Positions 33,444-37,410 of a stretch of 64,000 nt of DNA are shown piece by piece. How positions within the stretch are numbered: position 1 is the stretch's first letter; the number at the start of each line of letters is the position of its first letter. Under the pieces are notes generated by a model that ran no database searches, was not told the origin of the DNA, and saw only the letters and a program-made list of their open reading frames with translations. Source of the DNA: Ulvibacter algarum (GTDB taxonomy: Bacteria > Bacteroidota > Bacteroidia > Flavobacteriales > Flavobacteriaceae); assembly GCA_947488905.1 (NCBI GenBank), contig CANLBJ010000002.1, positions 124,001-188,000 on the forward strand, given 5' to 3'. The translations under genes and the position numbers were made by a program.

Positions 33444-33517
33444 GGCGAGGTAGCTCAGGTGGTTAGAGCGTCGGATTCATAACCCGGAGGTCACGGGTTC
33501 AAGTCCCGTTCTCGCTA
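33444..33517 (+). tRNA. tRNA-Met (CAT), elongator type
   Basis: A 74-nt cloverleaf can be drawn: acceptor GGCGAGG with TCTCGCT, D arm GCTC...GAGC, anticodon loop TTCATAA, T arm ACGGG TTCAAGT CCCGT. CCA is not encoded. The anticodon stem lacks the three G-C pairs of initiator tRNA (one position is A opposite C), so elongator Met is preferred. A tRNA-Ile with lysidine-modified CAT cannot be fully excluded. Its last 26 nt and the following terminator are duplicated exactly 360 bp downstream. Confidence 0.88.
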
Positions 33518-33548
33518 CAAAGTCCCCAATTTTATTGGGGACTTTTTT
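33492..33548 (+). repeat. 57-bp direct repeat, proximal copy (tRNA 3' end plus terminator)
   Basis: It covers the T arm, acceptor 3' strand and terminator of tRNA-Met. An identical copy lies at 33852-33908, offset exactly 360 bp. The two copies bracket the GIY-YIG gene, as attL and attR would in an element inserted into a tRNA 3' end. Confidence 0.9.
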
Positions 33549-33549
33549 T
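33519..33549 (+). terminator. Terminator of tRNA-Met
   Basis: AAAGTCCCCAAT pairs with ATTGGGGACTTT and is followed by a T run. It ends 5 nt before the GIY-YIG start codon. Confidence 0.85.
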
Positions 33550-33554
33550 GTTTT

Positions 33555-33818
33555 ATGGAACATGTAGTTTACATATTATATTCTAAGAAATTTGATAAGA
33601 CCTATGTTGGTTGCACTTCAAGTATAATTTCTCGATTTCATTCACATAACACTTATGCTACAAAAGGTTGGACTGTACGTTACAGACCTTGGGAAGTATC
33701 ACATATAGAGTTTTTTAATACCAAAACTGAGGCTCTATCAAGAGAAAAGTGGTTTAAAACAGGGACAGGTAGAAGAGAGAAAGATAAGTTACTACAAGAA
33801 TTTATAAAAAATAATTAA
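33555..33818 (+). CDS. GIY-YIG nuclease-domain protein
   Basis: An 87-residue single-domain GIY-YIG protein (UPF0213/SLX1-like size). The hallmark strands are VVYILYS (4-10) and KTYVGCT (15-21, YVG in place of YIG), with the catalytic Arg as R27 (SRFHSHN) and the metal-binding Glu as E64 (LSREKWFK). All key residues are kept, so it should be an active nuclease. It sits between two copies of the tRNA-Met 3' end plus terminator. Its ATG is 5 nt after the first terminator, leaving no room for its own promoter unless that lies within the tRNA. Expression would need read-through. Confidence 0.88.
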   Translation: MEHVVYILYSKKFDKTYVGCTSSIISRFHSHNTYATKGWTVRYRPWEVSHIEFFNTKTEALSREKWFKTGTGRREKDKLLQEFIKNN

Positions 33819-33825
33819 GAGTGGA

Positions 33826-33877
33826 GGATTCATATCCGCCGAAGAGGCGGACACGGGTTCAAGTCCCGTTCTCGCTA
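33826..33877 (+). pseudogene. tRNA-Met 3' half with an extra hairpin
   Basis: It contains GGATTCATA (as in the real anticodon loop), then a 6-bp hairpin TCCGCC/GGCGGA with loop GAAGA in place of the normal anticodon 3' stem and variable loop, then the exact T arm and acceptor 3' strand of the tRNA. No D arm or 5' acceptor strand precedes it, so it cannot be a tRNA by itself. Confidence 0.75.
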
Positions 33878-33908
33878 CAAAGTCCCCAATTTTATTGGGG
33901 ACTTTTTT
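33852..33908 (+). repeat. 57-bp direct repeat, distal copy
   Basis: Identical to 33492-33548. Flanking bases differ on both sides (t/a before, t/a after), which fixes the repeat length at 57 bp. Confidence 0.9.
33879..33908 (+). terminator. Second copy of the tRNA-Met terminator, closing the GIY-YIG gene
   Basis: Same stem as at 33519, with a six-T run. It would end any read-through transcript carrying the nuclease gene. Confidence 0.82.
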
Positions 33909-34000
33909 ATGAAAAATAATTTGGATGTTGTATTACTGGTTTTAGGTAATCACCTTTTAAAAAGATGGATTATATAAATGTTTTAGTAAACTTTAAAATT

Positions 34001-34038
34001 AAAAAATGCCCTGTCTAATTTTTGATAGGGCATTTTTT
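34001..34038. terminator. Bidirectional terminator at the end of the accessory gene array
   Basis: AAAAAATGCCCT pairs with AGGGCATTTTTT around a loop of about 14 nt. No plus-strand gene ends here, so its likely use is to stop minus-strand transcription coming through the accessory genes above 34.1 kb. Confidence 0.75.
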
Positions 34039-34069
34039 AATTTTTGTAGGAATACGGCGTAGGAACTTA

Positions 34070-34100
34070 TGTTTTATATCACGTGTTGTGTGTTCGTACT
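34070..34100 (-). repeat. Palindromic element A: single arm only
   Basis: TATCACG-TGTTGTG resembles the stop-proximal arm of elements B and C (TATACACG..TGTTGT) and abuts the stop of the 174-aa gene. The other arm is not recognisable, so the array seems truncated here. Confidence 0.4.
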
Positions 34101-34103
34101 TTT

Positions 34104-34628
34104 TTATCTAATCGTTTTCCTAATTCCAGGATACATCTTTCCATTGAATCTAGTGCTTTCTTCTTCAGGGTGAAAATAATAAATCTGCTTTCTCTCTAAA
34201 TCCTTGTATGCATAGCAATTATCGAACAGTATTATTCCGCTATTTTTTATTTTCCAATAGTCAACTTTCGGAAACCATTCAGGTATAATATTTTCCACTA
34301 ATTTAATTTGCGATTGGAAAATTCCAATGTAAGTTTTGTCAATATGATTTTCCTTATTAAAGATTGAGTCATAAAGTTCCTCATTTTCGTAGTCAAAAAC
34401 TCCAAATACACATTTTGTACTTAAATAGGATATGTTTTTTATATTCTGTGCGTCAGATTTTATTAACTCGACAGGAAACCAACCTGTCAATCTCGGATTT
34501 TCAATTTTACTGAATTCGTCATAATTCTCAAATTCTTGTAAATAATCTCCATTATTACAAGACACCAAAAACAATAGAACTAATATTCCGAAAAAGGATA
34601 AATTCAAATTTAGATTCTTAAATTTCAT
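34104..34628 (-). CDS. Orphan lipoprotein, function unknown
   Basis: A 174-residue protein with a lipoprotein signal (lipobox FLVSC, cysteine near residue 24) and no domain I recognise. It contains several aromatic clusters (GWFPVELIK, PEWFPKVDYWKIKN). It is the last of five minus-strand genes in the 34.1-37.1 kb accessory block, lying between palindromic elements A and B. Its A/T-rich codon use and lack of metabolic neighbours fit a mobile gene cassette. Confidence 0.6.
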   Translation of the reverse strand: MKFKNLNLNLSFFGILVLLFLVSCNNGDYLQEFENYDEFSKIENPRLTGWFPVELIKSDAQNIKNISYLSTKCVFGVFDYENEELYDSIFNKENHIDKTYIGIFQSQIKLVENIIPEWFPKVDYWKIKNSGIILFDNCYAYKDLERKQIYYFHPEEESTRFNGKMYPGIRKTIR

Positions 34629-34655
34629 TCAGTTTTACGATTTTTTGGGTATGAC

Positions 34656-34790
34656 ACACAACGTGTTCGTGTATGGTTAGTTGCGTTGGCTAGGTCTAAA
34701 TTAGTAAAAGAAAACGAACTAGAGGAAAATCCGCAGGATTTTCCGAGTACACACAGAACGAGTAATTAATTATACACGTTGTTGTAAAAC
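34656..34790 (-). repeat. Palindromic element B (attC-like)
   Basis: The outer arms at 34657-34686 and 34758-34790 pair imperfectly: CGTGTATGGTTAGTTGCGTT faces AACGAGTAATTAATTATACACG. The central part holds a perfect hairpin GGAAAATCC-GCA-GGATTTTCC (34724-34744). The element starts within 5 nt of the stop of the 146-aa gene and runs to the start region of the 174-aa gene. Confidence 0.7.
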
Positions 34791-34794
34791 GTTT

Positions 34795-35235
34795 TTACTT
34801 ATTTTCCATTATATATTTATTTTCCAAATAATATTTTTCATTTCCTTTTACCTTATCAAAATCCAACTTAATTATCGTATCGAGATTTTCCCTCTTGAGA
34901 TTTATTAATAAAGATTCATTTTTTTTAGTTAAAGTGTCTCCTATTTTAATGAAGTCAAAAAAGTCAGAGCTTTGAAAAACAAAATCCTTTTTAATATTAT
35001 CAAAGATTTGATGTCTGATAATAACTATAGGTCTTGCGTGATTTTCTTTGTCAATATATTTTTCGGTAACTACTCCGTCATAGTTTGAGTGATATTCATC
35101 ATAAACTATTTTGTCGAAAAATTCTTTTTGAGTTTGATTATCACAAGAATTTAATCCGATTACGAGTGGAATTCCGCTTAATAGAATTCCAATTCCTCTT
35201 ATTATTTTTTTCGATATGAATTTTTCGGTCTTCAA
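34795..35235 (-). CDS. Orphan lipoprotein, function unknown
   Basis: A 146-residue protein whose N-terminus has a basic, hydrophobic signal with lipobox GLNSC (cysteine near residue 31). The mature part is Lys/Asp/Phe-rich and has no motif I can name. It starts 12 nt after the stop of the 101-aa membrane gene, and there is no palindrome between the two, so they behave as one two-gene cassette ending at element B. Confidence 0.55.
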   Translation of the reverse strand: MKTEKFISKKIIRGIGILLSGIPLVIGLNSCDNQTQKEFFDKIVYDEYHSNYDGVVTEKYIDKENHARPIVIIRHQIFDNIKKDFVFQSSDFFDFIKIGDTLTKKNESLLINLKRENLDTIIKLDFDKVKGNEKYYLENKYIMENK

Positions 35236-35247
35236 TTCAAAGGTTTA

Positions 35248-35553
35248 TTAGGATAATGACATAATTGACAAAAAAGTAGTTAATCCAAAATAAAAGAATG
35301 CCATATATCGGCTTTTCGGAACTGACTTTTCACATATTTTCATCGCATACTTAAAAATGAAATTATTGTTCTCAAAGAAGTAAGAGAGTAAAAATATAAT
35401 TCCGATGAGTTGGATATAGATAACTAAAAAAATGTTCACTTTTAATTCTGATTGTAAATGGTAATATGATAAAAACAGAAAAACTGCTAAAATCAATATT
35501 ATCAAATATCCATTCCAATAGTAGGACTTATTTTTGGCTTCGGAACTGTTCAT
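35248..35553 (-). CDS. Small membrane protein, function unknown
   Basis: A 101-residue protein with about three hydrophobic segments (about 11-30, 37-57 and 80-98) joined by short basic loops. It lies between element C and the 146-aa lipoprotein gene on the same strand and is probably translated from the same mRNA as that gene. No family was recognised. Confidence 0.55.
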   Translation of the reverse strand: MNSSEAKNKSYYWNGYLIILILAVFLFLSYYHLQSELKVNIFLVIYIQLIGIIFLLSYFFENNNFIFKYAMKICEKSVPKSRYMAFFYFGLTTFLSIMSLS

Positions 35554-35564
35554 TCAAATGTTTT

Positions 35565-35699
35565 ACAACGTGTTTGTGTATGATTTCGTTGCGTGTTTCA
35601 GCAACTAAATTAGCAAACTAAAACGAACCAGAGGAAATTCCGAAGGAATTTCCAAGTAGGCGAGTACTAGCAATGAATTATACACGGTGTTGTACAACG
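35565..35699 (-). repeat. Palindromic element C (attC-like)
   Basis: The left arm ACAACGTGTTTGTGTATGAT (from 35565) pairs imperfectly with the right arm at 35670-35693 (GCAATG...GGTGTTGT). The centre has a perfect hairpin GGAAATTCC-GAA-GGAATTTCC (35633-35653). It directly abuts the stop of the 214-aa gene at 35700. Arms and the inner AAACGAACCAGAGG match element B (AAACGAACTAGAGG). Confidence 0.72.
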
Positions 35700-36344
35700 T
35701 TATTTTATTTTTTTTATAATTCCGAAATGAGTTTTTTCTTCAAAGTTTGCTTTCGATTTATACACATAACTTCCATCGTCAAGAACATCAATAATTTCTA
35801 CGTCAATTTCCTTTCCAATTAAATGTTTTAATCTTGGTTCAGTCATTTTTTTATATATCAAAACATAATGACAATCCGAAATCCATTTTATATAATAAAT
35901 CTGCTTGCCTCCTTTAAATATTTCCCTTTGAACTTTGCGTTTGCGTTTAATCTTGGTGTCCTGATAGAGAACGTTCTTGTATGCGTAAATTCCAGTTTTA
36001 AATTTTTCGCAAGCGTTACATTCTTCCTCGTTTAGGCTTTTATTTTCATATGTATTATTTATGAATTCAAAAGTTGAATCGTAACAATTGTTTTTTAGTT
36101 TACTATCAGGATAATATTGAATTCCGAGAAGATATTGACGAAGTTGCTCAATATTATATTCATTTTCATATGTAGTTTTTTCCGGAACAATGGTTACTTC
36201 GCTAATTTTAGCTTCGTCATTCACACAGAAATTCACAGTAACATATTCAATACTTTTTACGTCTTCGACAAAGAACATTTTCTGCACTTGTCCGAATGTA
36301 TTTGAGAAAACAAAAAGTGCTAATAATAATATAATTTTGTTCAA
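35700..36344 (-). CDS. Exported protein of unknown function
   Basis: A 214-residue protein with a signal peptide (MNKIILLLALFVFSNTFGQ). It contains an EECNACEKF motif with two cysteines near the middle and a C-terminal KSKANFEEKTHFGIIKKIK. I do not recognise the family. Its stop codon is immediately followed by element C, and element D lies just upstream of its start. It is on the same strand as its neighbours in the accessory block. Confidence 0.55.
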   Translation of the reverse strand: MNKIILLLALFVFSNTFGQVQKMFFVEDVKSIEYVTVNFCVNDEAKISEVTIVPEKTTYENEYNIEQLRQYLLGIQYYPDSKLKNNCYDSTFEFINNTYENKSLNEEECNACEKFKTGIYAYKNVLYQDTKIKRKRKVQREIFKGGKQIYYIKWISDCHYVLIYKKMTEPRLKHLIGKEIDVEIIDVLDDGSYVYKSKANFEEKTHFGIIKKIK

Positions 36345-36365
36345 ATTTCGTGGTTTTTGGTAATG

Positions 36366-36562
36366 TTGTACAACGGCTACGGCTATGGTTAGTAAGGGAT
36401 TTAAAAGTAGTAAACTTTCGATTAATCACTTAGCCAAAACTTTTTATTTTGTTTTATTTTTTTCTTTATAAAGCCAAATCAAAAAGATTTGGCGGACTCG
36501 GTTATAAGCTCGAAACTTTTGATTAAGCACAAAAGCCCGTATTAATTATAGCCCTTGTTACC
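36366..36562 (-). repeat. Palindromic element D (attC-like), overlapping the FMN reductase 3' end
   Basis: The left arm ACAACGGCTACGGCTATGG pairs imperfectly with the right arm at 36536-36562, whose minus strand reads AACAAGGGCTATAATTAA. The centre holds a perfect hairpin GCCAAATC-AAAAA-GATTTGGC (36473-36493) and an 18-bp direct repeat (36412-36429 and 36514-36531, two mismatches). The right arm contains the final codons and stop of the FMN reductase gene. Confidence 0.7.
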
Positions 36563-37102
36563 TGCTGGCTTTCTTGTCAATTTTTCAAACGATTCAACGA
36601 ATTTTTTCAATTCAGTTTCTGTTTTCTTATCTGATACCTTACCATTTTTCTCCACTTTACCTTTTATTCCCTGAATTAAAAGAGCTGTCTCATCTGTAAA
36701 TTTAGTTTGGACAGTTTCCATAATCAATTTCAGTTCTTCGTGTCCTTTTATTCCGCTTGCCGAAGCTGTGATAAGTCCAATTGGTTTGTCAGAGAAGACA
36801 GTTGTAGACACACACCATTCAATCATATTTTTTAAACCACTAGGAATACTGAAAACATATTCAGGTGTACAAATTATAACTCCGTCAGCATTTTCAATTT
36901 TAGTCCTAAATTCTGCAATTTTTTCAGGTATATTTTTGTCAGTCAGTTCTGTTTTGAAGTGTGGTAATTCGGTCAAATCATCTATAATCTCCATATCAAA
37001 ATCAGCTTTACCTGATTCCGCTATCCACTTGAGAATTGACAGATTTGCAGAATTATGACTGGCACTTCCACAAATTCCAATTATTTTTTTATTCCCTATC
37101 AT
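36542..37102 (-). CDS. NADPH-dependent FMN reductase family protein
   Basis: A 186-residue flavodoxin-like reductase. The FMN phosphate loop is GICGSASHNSANLSIL (about 9-24), and the conserved TPEYVFSIPSGLKNMIEW appears in the middle. The family reduces flavins, quinones, azo dyes or chromate, and the substrate is unknown. It is the first gene of the accessory block and the only one with a recognised function. Its last residues (GNKGYN) are encoded inside the arm of element D, so the gene and the palindrome move together. No start-proximal promoter box was seen. Confidence 0.88.
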   Translation of the reverse strand: MIGNKKIIGICGSASHNSANLSILKWIAESGKADFDMEIIDDLTELPHFKTELTDKNIPEKIAEFRTKIENADGVIICTPEYVFSIPSGLKNMIEWCVSTTVFSDKPIGLITASASGIKGHEELKLIMETVQTKFTDETALLIQGIKGKVEKNGKVSDKKTETELKKFVESFEKLTRKPAGNKGYN

Positions 37103-37278
37103 TCAATTTTTATTCGATTTTTTTTGCTTGCAGGTAACTAGTTATATAGTGCAATTTATGCATTATATCCAGTAAATAAAACTAGATATCTTTAGTTTAA
37201 AGTGCATCATATCAAGATACTAATTACTTATAAAAACAACAGAATACACACAGATTAAAAACTACTTAAAATTTCTAT

Positions 37279-37410
37279 TTAAGAGGGAAACCATATAAAG
37301 ACTATAATCCAAGTTAGAATGATTAAAATACTTGCCACGACGGCTATTCGCGTATTACTGCGAAAGACATCGGCTAAAATTTCTAATGCTAATTTTATTA
37401 ACTCAACCAT
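37279..37410 (-). CDS. 43-residue single-span membrane protein
   Basis: A short frame with an amphipathic N-terminus (MVELIKLALEILADVFRSN) and one strong membrane segment (about 22-41, VVASILIILTWIIVFIW). It begins 34 bp after the sodium:solute symporter stop on the same strand, and the gap has no obvious terminator, so it may be the last gene of that operon. It is supported by composition and context only. Function is unknown, though an accessory peptide of the transporter is one possibility. Confidence 0.5.
   Translation of the reverse strand: MVELIKLALEILADVFRSNTRIAVVASILIILTWIIVFIWFPS

Follow-up and report, generated by a model that had tools for sequence, protein, structure and literature searches.

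A probable cassette array of an integron-like system in Ulvibacter algarum, with a recombinase that lacks the IntI insert

Genes and features of the locus

We studied a group of genes and palindromes in a 64,000-nucleotide (nt) stretch of Ulvibacter algarum DNA, here called the window (all positions count from its first letter). A reading of this DNA from its letters alone, the sequence-only reading, had described five minus-strand genes in four units, each with a palindrome at its 3′ end. The coordinates were confirmed, as was the description of three palindromes (elements B, C and D) as complete and of a fourth (element A) as one-armed. As set out below, the four units very probably make up a short array of cassettes belonging to an integron-like system whose recombinase lacks the insert found in the integron integrase IntI. 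The features of the array are as follows.

34085-37147, minus strand: array of four putative integron-like cassettes
37136-37147, minus strand: attI-like site ATATAAC-TA-GTT (ATATAACTAGTT) at the start of the array; sole window match of ATATAACNNGTT
36372-37138, minus strand: cassette 1, GTTACCTGC ... FMN reductase gene ... GCAGGTAAC plus element D; terminal inverted repeat 37130-37138 / 36557-36565
36372-36559, minus strand: element D, attC-like imperfect palindrome of 188 nt, GGCTAT/ATAGCC arms
35567-36374, minus strand: cassette 2, GTTGTACAAC ... gene 35700-36344 (214 residues) ... GTTGTACAAC plus element C; terminal inverted repeat
35567-35691, minus strand: element C, attC-like imperfect palindrome of 125 nt, GTGTAT/ATACAC arms
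34660-35569, minus strand: cassette 3, GTTGTAAAAC ... genes 35248-35553 (101 residues) and 34795-35235 (146 residues) ... GTTTTACAAC plus element B; terminal inverted repeat
34660-34783, minus strand: element B, attC-like imperfect palindrome of 124 nt, GTGTAT/ATACAC arms
34085-34662, minus strand: cassette 4, GTTGTGTGT ... gene 34104-34628 (174 residues, lipoprotein-like) ... ACACACAAC; terminal inverted repeat
34064-34087, minus strand: element A, left arm only (AACACGTGATATAAAACATAAG); continues into old flank that can be recognised in the sister species

Read in the sense of the genes, the plan of a cassette is GTT-N7, then the gene or genes, then N7′-AAC, the element and the next GTT. In each of the four window cassettes the opening 9-10 nt (GTT-N7) match the closing 9-10 nt in reverse complement, and N7 is different in each. 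Because N7 and N7′ pair within one cassette, the element is a joint between two cassettes, and the equivalents of the R boxes belong to the cassettes. These cassette-specific terminal repeats, the key feature of the array, had been missed by the sequence-only reading, as had the attI-like site at 37136-37147. The motif ATATAACNNGTT matches once in the window, at the head of the array, where about 0.5 matches would be expected by chance.

The elements are foldable, measure about 120-190 nt and lie 3′ of each cassette (D, C and B; A is truncated). A layout common to B, C and D had been proposed. The repeats common to B and C, with the shared AAACGAAC(T/C)AGAGG, are real, but D has arms of another type (GGCTAT/ATAGCC versus GTGTAT/ATACAC). 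The FMN reductase gene runs into the left arm of element D (36542-36559) and takes its stop codon from TATAATTAAT of that element. Among the five array genes, only this one (36542-37102) had a clear Pfam match, to NADPH-dependent FMN reductase (PF03358, E 4e-29). A search of Rfam with 33900-37300 returned no relevant match, and tblastn beside the window array detected no convincing recombinase remnant, in agreement with the earlier statement that no integrase is in view.

Elements and cassettes in other genomes

We searched for the elements with a strict pattern, GTGTATGNTTN{73,103}AATTATACAC, using the reversed pattern as the control. The strict pattern had 10 matches in the genome of the window and none for the control; it matched in 67 of 149 genomes of the window's family, and the control in 0. 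Window cassette DNA used as the query matched in 219 of 397 family genomes, mostly through the elements, with some single cassettes in other contexts. A loose regular expression allowing three mismatches gave noise and was replaced by an element profile. In one genome (G014) this profile found 97 matches, every one of them on the same strand, grouped in two clusters some 50-65 kb in size. The palindromes lie at gene 3′ ends and point one way.

The proposal that the units follow the plan of integron cassettes, with one orientation and a foldable element at the 3′ end, was supported both by these one-stranded arrays and by the coding content: the longest open reading frame (ORF) was forward in 44 of 46 complete cassettes having an ORF. 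In complete cassettes, the distance from the stop codon to AAC was mostly 11-24 nt, and that from GTT to the first possible start codon mostly 12-40 nt. Pairing of the ends extended beyond the window as well, with 52 of 82 array cassettes matching at all 6 tested bases (shuffled mean 2.19 of 6; 2.35 when the next cassette served as the control). Among 85 cassette proteins there were single matches to ThsA (Thoeris), a cyclase of the cyclic-oligonucleotide-based antiphage signalling system (CBASS), DSR2, SpbK, Fic and others, as well as immunity-like proteins. In the G014 arrays (loci L047-L053, for example L053:5403-6114), element pairs about 556-560 bp apart recur often, seemingly a cassette that has multiplied, and a 426-residue tyrosine recombinase of another type is itself a cassette gene (L052:493-1773).

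Duplicated cassettes in G014 (97-100% identical, with unrelated neighbours) revealed the borders of the moving unit. Identity starts at GTT and stops at the GTT after the element, in 10 boundary comparisons per side, of which some are reciprocal or involve loci that overlap. These duplicates argue that a cassette consists of a gene and its 3′ site, bordered at GTT. Comparison with a sister species (G156, whose flanks are about 84% identical at the DNA level) showed that the window block is not a fixed ancestral segment: a different gene, of 305 residues, stands there, bordered on the left by the attI-like flank and on the right by ACGTGATAnAAAACATnAAG, a flank matched by eye. Two further genomes (G076 and G149) had nothing alike at the corresponding place.

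Exchange of the element between cassettes

The same elements occur on unrelated genes. We counted 380 element pairs that were at least 95% identical on unrelated gene ends, mostly with different N7; sharing was scored ungapped, as unrelated AT-rich DNA aligns near 55% and gapped identity is uninformative. Elements up to 98% identical to element C were found in other genera, and a fragment of element D (q602-791) had matches of 81-90% identity in many family genomes.

Conversely, window cassettes 2, 3 and 4 keep the gene and N7 ends between lineages, whereas the element differs. The gene and ends of cassette 2 are also present in G282 and G021, where the element is another one or degenerate. 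In G049, G231 and G314, relatives of the second gene of cassette 3 end in GTTTTACAAC, followed by different elements. Cassette 4 occurs with the same N7 ends, at 86-87% identity, once in G166 and twice in G347, each time with another element. The homologue of cassette 1, in G002, extends from GTT through a related element. As the same gene and ends are found with other elements, and the same elements with other genes, the AAC-to-GTT stretch has been exchanged or converted. In classical attC sites, the top-strand recombination point moves to the R″ box when the extrahelical bases are absent (PMC2727003). By analogy, such a shift is a possible route for exchange of the element on the AAC side.

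Folding and strand choice

Folding of single strands, proposed as a check on the palindromes, yielded imperfect hairpins with a strong strand bias. In the circle form, in which an element is joined to its own cassette ends, the bottom strand was more stable in 50 of 51 cases (p 6e-10, DNA parameters), with mean energies of -28.9 kcal/mol for the bottom and -24.6 kcal/mol for the top strand. The bottom strand was also better in 48 of 51 array forms. For element B, single-strand DNA folding was better than most shuffles (z about -2.6).

Within the terminal repeat, a conserved A lies opposite C on the top strand in 46 of 52, which corresponds to a G.T wobble on the bottom strand. The bottom strand is preferred because the A.C mismatches of the top strand become G.T wobbles on it. 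Strand choice thus appears, from these sequences, to be built into the DNA. In classical attC sites, only the bottom strand is used, and it is chosen by extrahelical bases (PMC2727003). The L arms covary, with 170 of 178 complementary versus 90 expected, and are of TG, TA and GC types. The count of A.C pairs in the L box (250/254) was partly forced by the search pattern and was not used as evidence; the mismatch in the terminal repeat is free of this constraint.

A recombinase family and its attI-like site

The sequence-only reading had offered two options, an orphan cassette cluster or a different mobile system. There is indeed no enzyme at the array, but one is encoded elsewhere in the same genome (C3:918-2081), in a family distinct from IntI. 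It is followed by an attI-like ATATAACGAGTTGGC and a cassette with an element at C3:83-191. In ten or more array-bearing genomes, the best IntI-like matches adjoin arrays.

Members of this family are mostly 370-440 residues long and comprise about 90 N-terminal residues absent from Xer and IntI, a SAM-like domain and PF00589. The last was detected in 12 of 12 sequences, in which the catalytic residues R228, K253, H317, R320, H343 and Y352 are invariant. Between GKGxKDR and HxLRH, we found 58 residues (57-61) versus 100 in IntI, so the additional domain of IntI is not present. Matches to TIGR02249 were under the cut-off and missed positions roughly 180-240, and the score for NF040815 (XerA) was 211.6 bits against a cut-off of 220. 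By sequence and fold, the family is closest to XerA and IntI4. In a quick tree of 89 sequences with few outgroups, the family and 30 IntI proteins were on separate branches (support 86 and 93). IntI itself was over the cut-off in 84 of 296 phylum genomes, in one genome of the window's class and in none of the window's family, whereas the N-terminal domain was present in 81 of 149 genomes from the family and in 47 of 296 from the phylum.

The N-terminal domain, predicted alone, had a predicted local distance difference test (pLDDT) score of 77.5 and a beta-beta-alpha-beta-beta-alpha-beta topology. Its fold best matched UvsW and XPB (Z 6.6-6.8; Foldseek E 0.05), with the HARP domain of SMARCAL1 lower in the list; Pfam HARP had a weak match in 1 of 12 members (E 0.0098). 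Domains of the XPB/UvsW/HARP type bind DNA structure. On the strength of the predicted model, the N-terminal domain may recognise the element hairpin.

We looked for an attI motif, ATATAAC-N1-4-GTT with one mismatch allowed, within 200 bp downstream of the recombinase stop codon. It was present at 63 of 72 named loci (4 of 72 in the upstream control and 5.9% in shuffles); at the other 9 of the 72 no attI-like site was found downstream. Of 30 family loci, 27 had the site. Starting from attI alone, the first 10-mer recurred as an exact reverse complement within 5 kb at 30 of 50 loci (2, 1 and 0 in controls). At 16 loci, two or more cassettes chain from attI, the spacers lying mainly around 117-121 or 180-190 nt. 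Of the remoter loci at phylum level, about half did not offer enough sequence for the cassette test.

Two further observations concern the enzyme. In a separate subgroup of the recombinases (L082 and L089, and also L092, where the recombinase is short), the arrays diverge from the recombinase gene, as in classical integrons, and the attI region looks different. Relatives spanning most of the recombinase, including its N-terminal part, are encoded on plasmids of Chryseobacterium, Pontibacter and Rufibacter (NZ_CP041688, NZ_CP094530, NZ_CP111080 and NZ_CP012644); there may be mobile versions.

Beside the array, a tRNA-Met gene (33444-33518) precedes a GIY-YIG gene (33555-33818), after which the tRNA 3′ end plus terminator recurs as an identical copy of 49 nt (33860-33908). 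This arrangement (33444-33908) resembles what a small insertion at a tRNA would leave behind; in the sister species only remnants of the GIY-YIG gene are present.

Proposed mechanism and alternative explanations

We consider it highly probable, judging from the sequences compared here, that the window contains a short array of cassettes from an integron-like system with a recombinase that lacks the IntI insert. The recombinase would act on the element's bottom strand in the form of a hairpin with an R stem of N7-AAC/GTT-N7 and an L stem of GNNTAT/ATANNC, and its N-terminal domain, with the predicted XPB/UvsW/HARP-like fold, may read this hairpin. A cassette would leave as a circle, restoring its own R stem, and strand exchange at G/TT would insert it at either attI or another cassette's junction. 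The window array would then be a platform that has lost its former enzyme, or a secondary insertion site at which the C3 enzyme acts in trans. Recombination or conversion would also occur on the AAC side; it must do so if gene and N7 ends stay together while the element is swapped between lineages.

Several results weigh against this reading. About 30 of the 82 intervals are without matching ends, many of them probably because the finder missed an element. Co-occurrence of the strict pattern with the recombinase is weak across genomes (44 of 67 versus 37 of 82, Fisher p 0.014), a signal obscured by orphan arrays and by elements of other types, and we therefore used positional linkage as evidence. 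The similarity of the N-terminal fold has a Z under 8, below the level that excludes a common arrangement. Since GTT is common to all sites, exchange at G/TT is indistinguishable from exchange at GT/T. No recombination event, circle or activity was observed in this sequence-based work.

One alternative, which we regard as improbable, is a transposon-like family in which each gene moves by means of its terminal inverted repeat (GTT-N7...N7-AAC), leaving the elements behind as fixed spacers. It would account for genes and ends found with unrelated elements between lineages, and for the 380 pairs of near-identical elements on unrelated genes with different N7. By contrast, the G014 duplicates carry the element up to the next GTT, the ends are cassette-specific, unlike those of transposons, and neither the attI-like entry point 3′ of the recombinase nor the strand-specific folding of the element fits such a family.

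A classical integron remnant, that is, a cluster of attC sites lacking integron-integrases (CALIN) left by an IntI integron minus its integrase, is less probable again. It shares the cassette layout, direction and bottom-strand folding, and there is no recombinase in the window. The AAC/GTT edges of the elements do fit attC R boxes, as had been proposed, but the heptamer consensus RYYYAAC/GTTRRRY is found at just 11 of 253 left and 12 of 253 right ends. Moreover, IntI is over the cut-off in 84 of 296 phylum genomes and in no genome of the window's family, and the arrays adjoin a different recombinase family without the IntI domain. Least credible of all are dispersed palindromic repeats (like repetitive extragenic palindromes or miniature inverted-repeat transposable elements) or transcription terminators lying at gene ends by chance, since abutment on stop codons and scattered genomic copies are outweighed by the single orientation of long arrays (97 of 97), the cassette-specific end pairing, the exact borders of duplicates and the linkage to recombinase and attI. 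We set aside these last readings and the classical CALIN on the grounds given here.

Discussion

The system described here shares with IntI integrons, including Vibrio superintegrons, the recombinase-attI-cassette layout, mostly single-gene cassettes in one direction, a foldable 3′ site with bottom-strand preference, AAC/GTT borders, large arrays and defence genes in cassettes. It differs in that its recombinase lacks the additional domain and has about 88 extra N-terminal residues, in that its N7 boxes are cassette-specific and depart from RYYYAAC/GTTRRRY (GTTR fits 249 of 253), in that the recombinase gene is mostly co-oriented with the cassettes, and in its occurrence mainly in Flavobacteriaceae. 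IntI has a specific additional domain around patch III (PMC9668308, PMC8138268), and this insert has been called essential for integron function (PMC8138268). Judged by its sequences, the system would function like an integron and is not a member of the IntI family, as it has neither the IntI domain nor R boxes of the IntI type. A CALIN is defined by two or more attC sites (IntegronFinder model) without an integrase. The window array resembles one in having several attC-like sites and no adjoining enzyme; it differs in that its sites do not follow the heptamer consensus of IntI attC sites, and in that an enzyme is encoded elsewhere in the same genome.

In both sequence and fold, the nearest catalytic domain is that of XerA-type recombinases (NF040815; PDB 5hxy and 4a8e). 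The role of Xer enzymes is to resolve dimers of the chromosome at dif, whereas here an N-terminal domain is present and the gene stands before cassette arrays. Prediction suggests that this N-terminal domain shares the fold of the XPB damage-recognition, T4 UvsW N-terminal and SMARCAL1 HARP domains, which are helicase-associated; the similarity is one of predicted fold and no more than suggestive. A broader proposal would be a second class of integron, of separate Bacteroidota origin, with an exchangeable hairpin module and a Xer-like recombinase in which an N-terminal structure-reading domain replaces the IntI insert. We see the case for this proposal as evenly balanced; a separate origin from IntI integrons is possible.

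IntegronFinder 2.0 reported one complete integron in Bacteroidetes proper, in Salinibacter ruber (PMC9024848). A literature search, with thin coverage of subscription journals and preprints, found no description of the present system, which is likely new to the literature. Integrons are regarded as almost absent from Bacteroidetes, and a widespread system in these bacteria appears to do the same job without the IntI insert. It seemingly holds an unrecognised, large pool of swappable cassette genes, including the anti-phage CBASS cyclase, Thoeris ThsA and DSR2-like genes. How folded single-stranded sites can be read without the IntI insert has become a testable question and, because the same gene and ends occur with different hairpin modules, so has the origin of cassette recombination sites. 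If the second class of integron proposed above is real, its exchangeable hairpin module would reveal how a cassette acquires and alters its recombination site.

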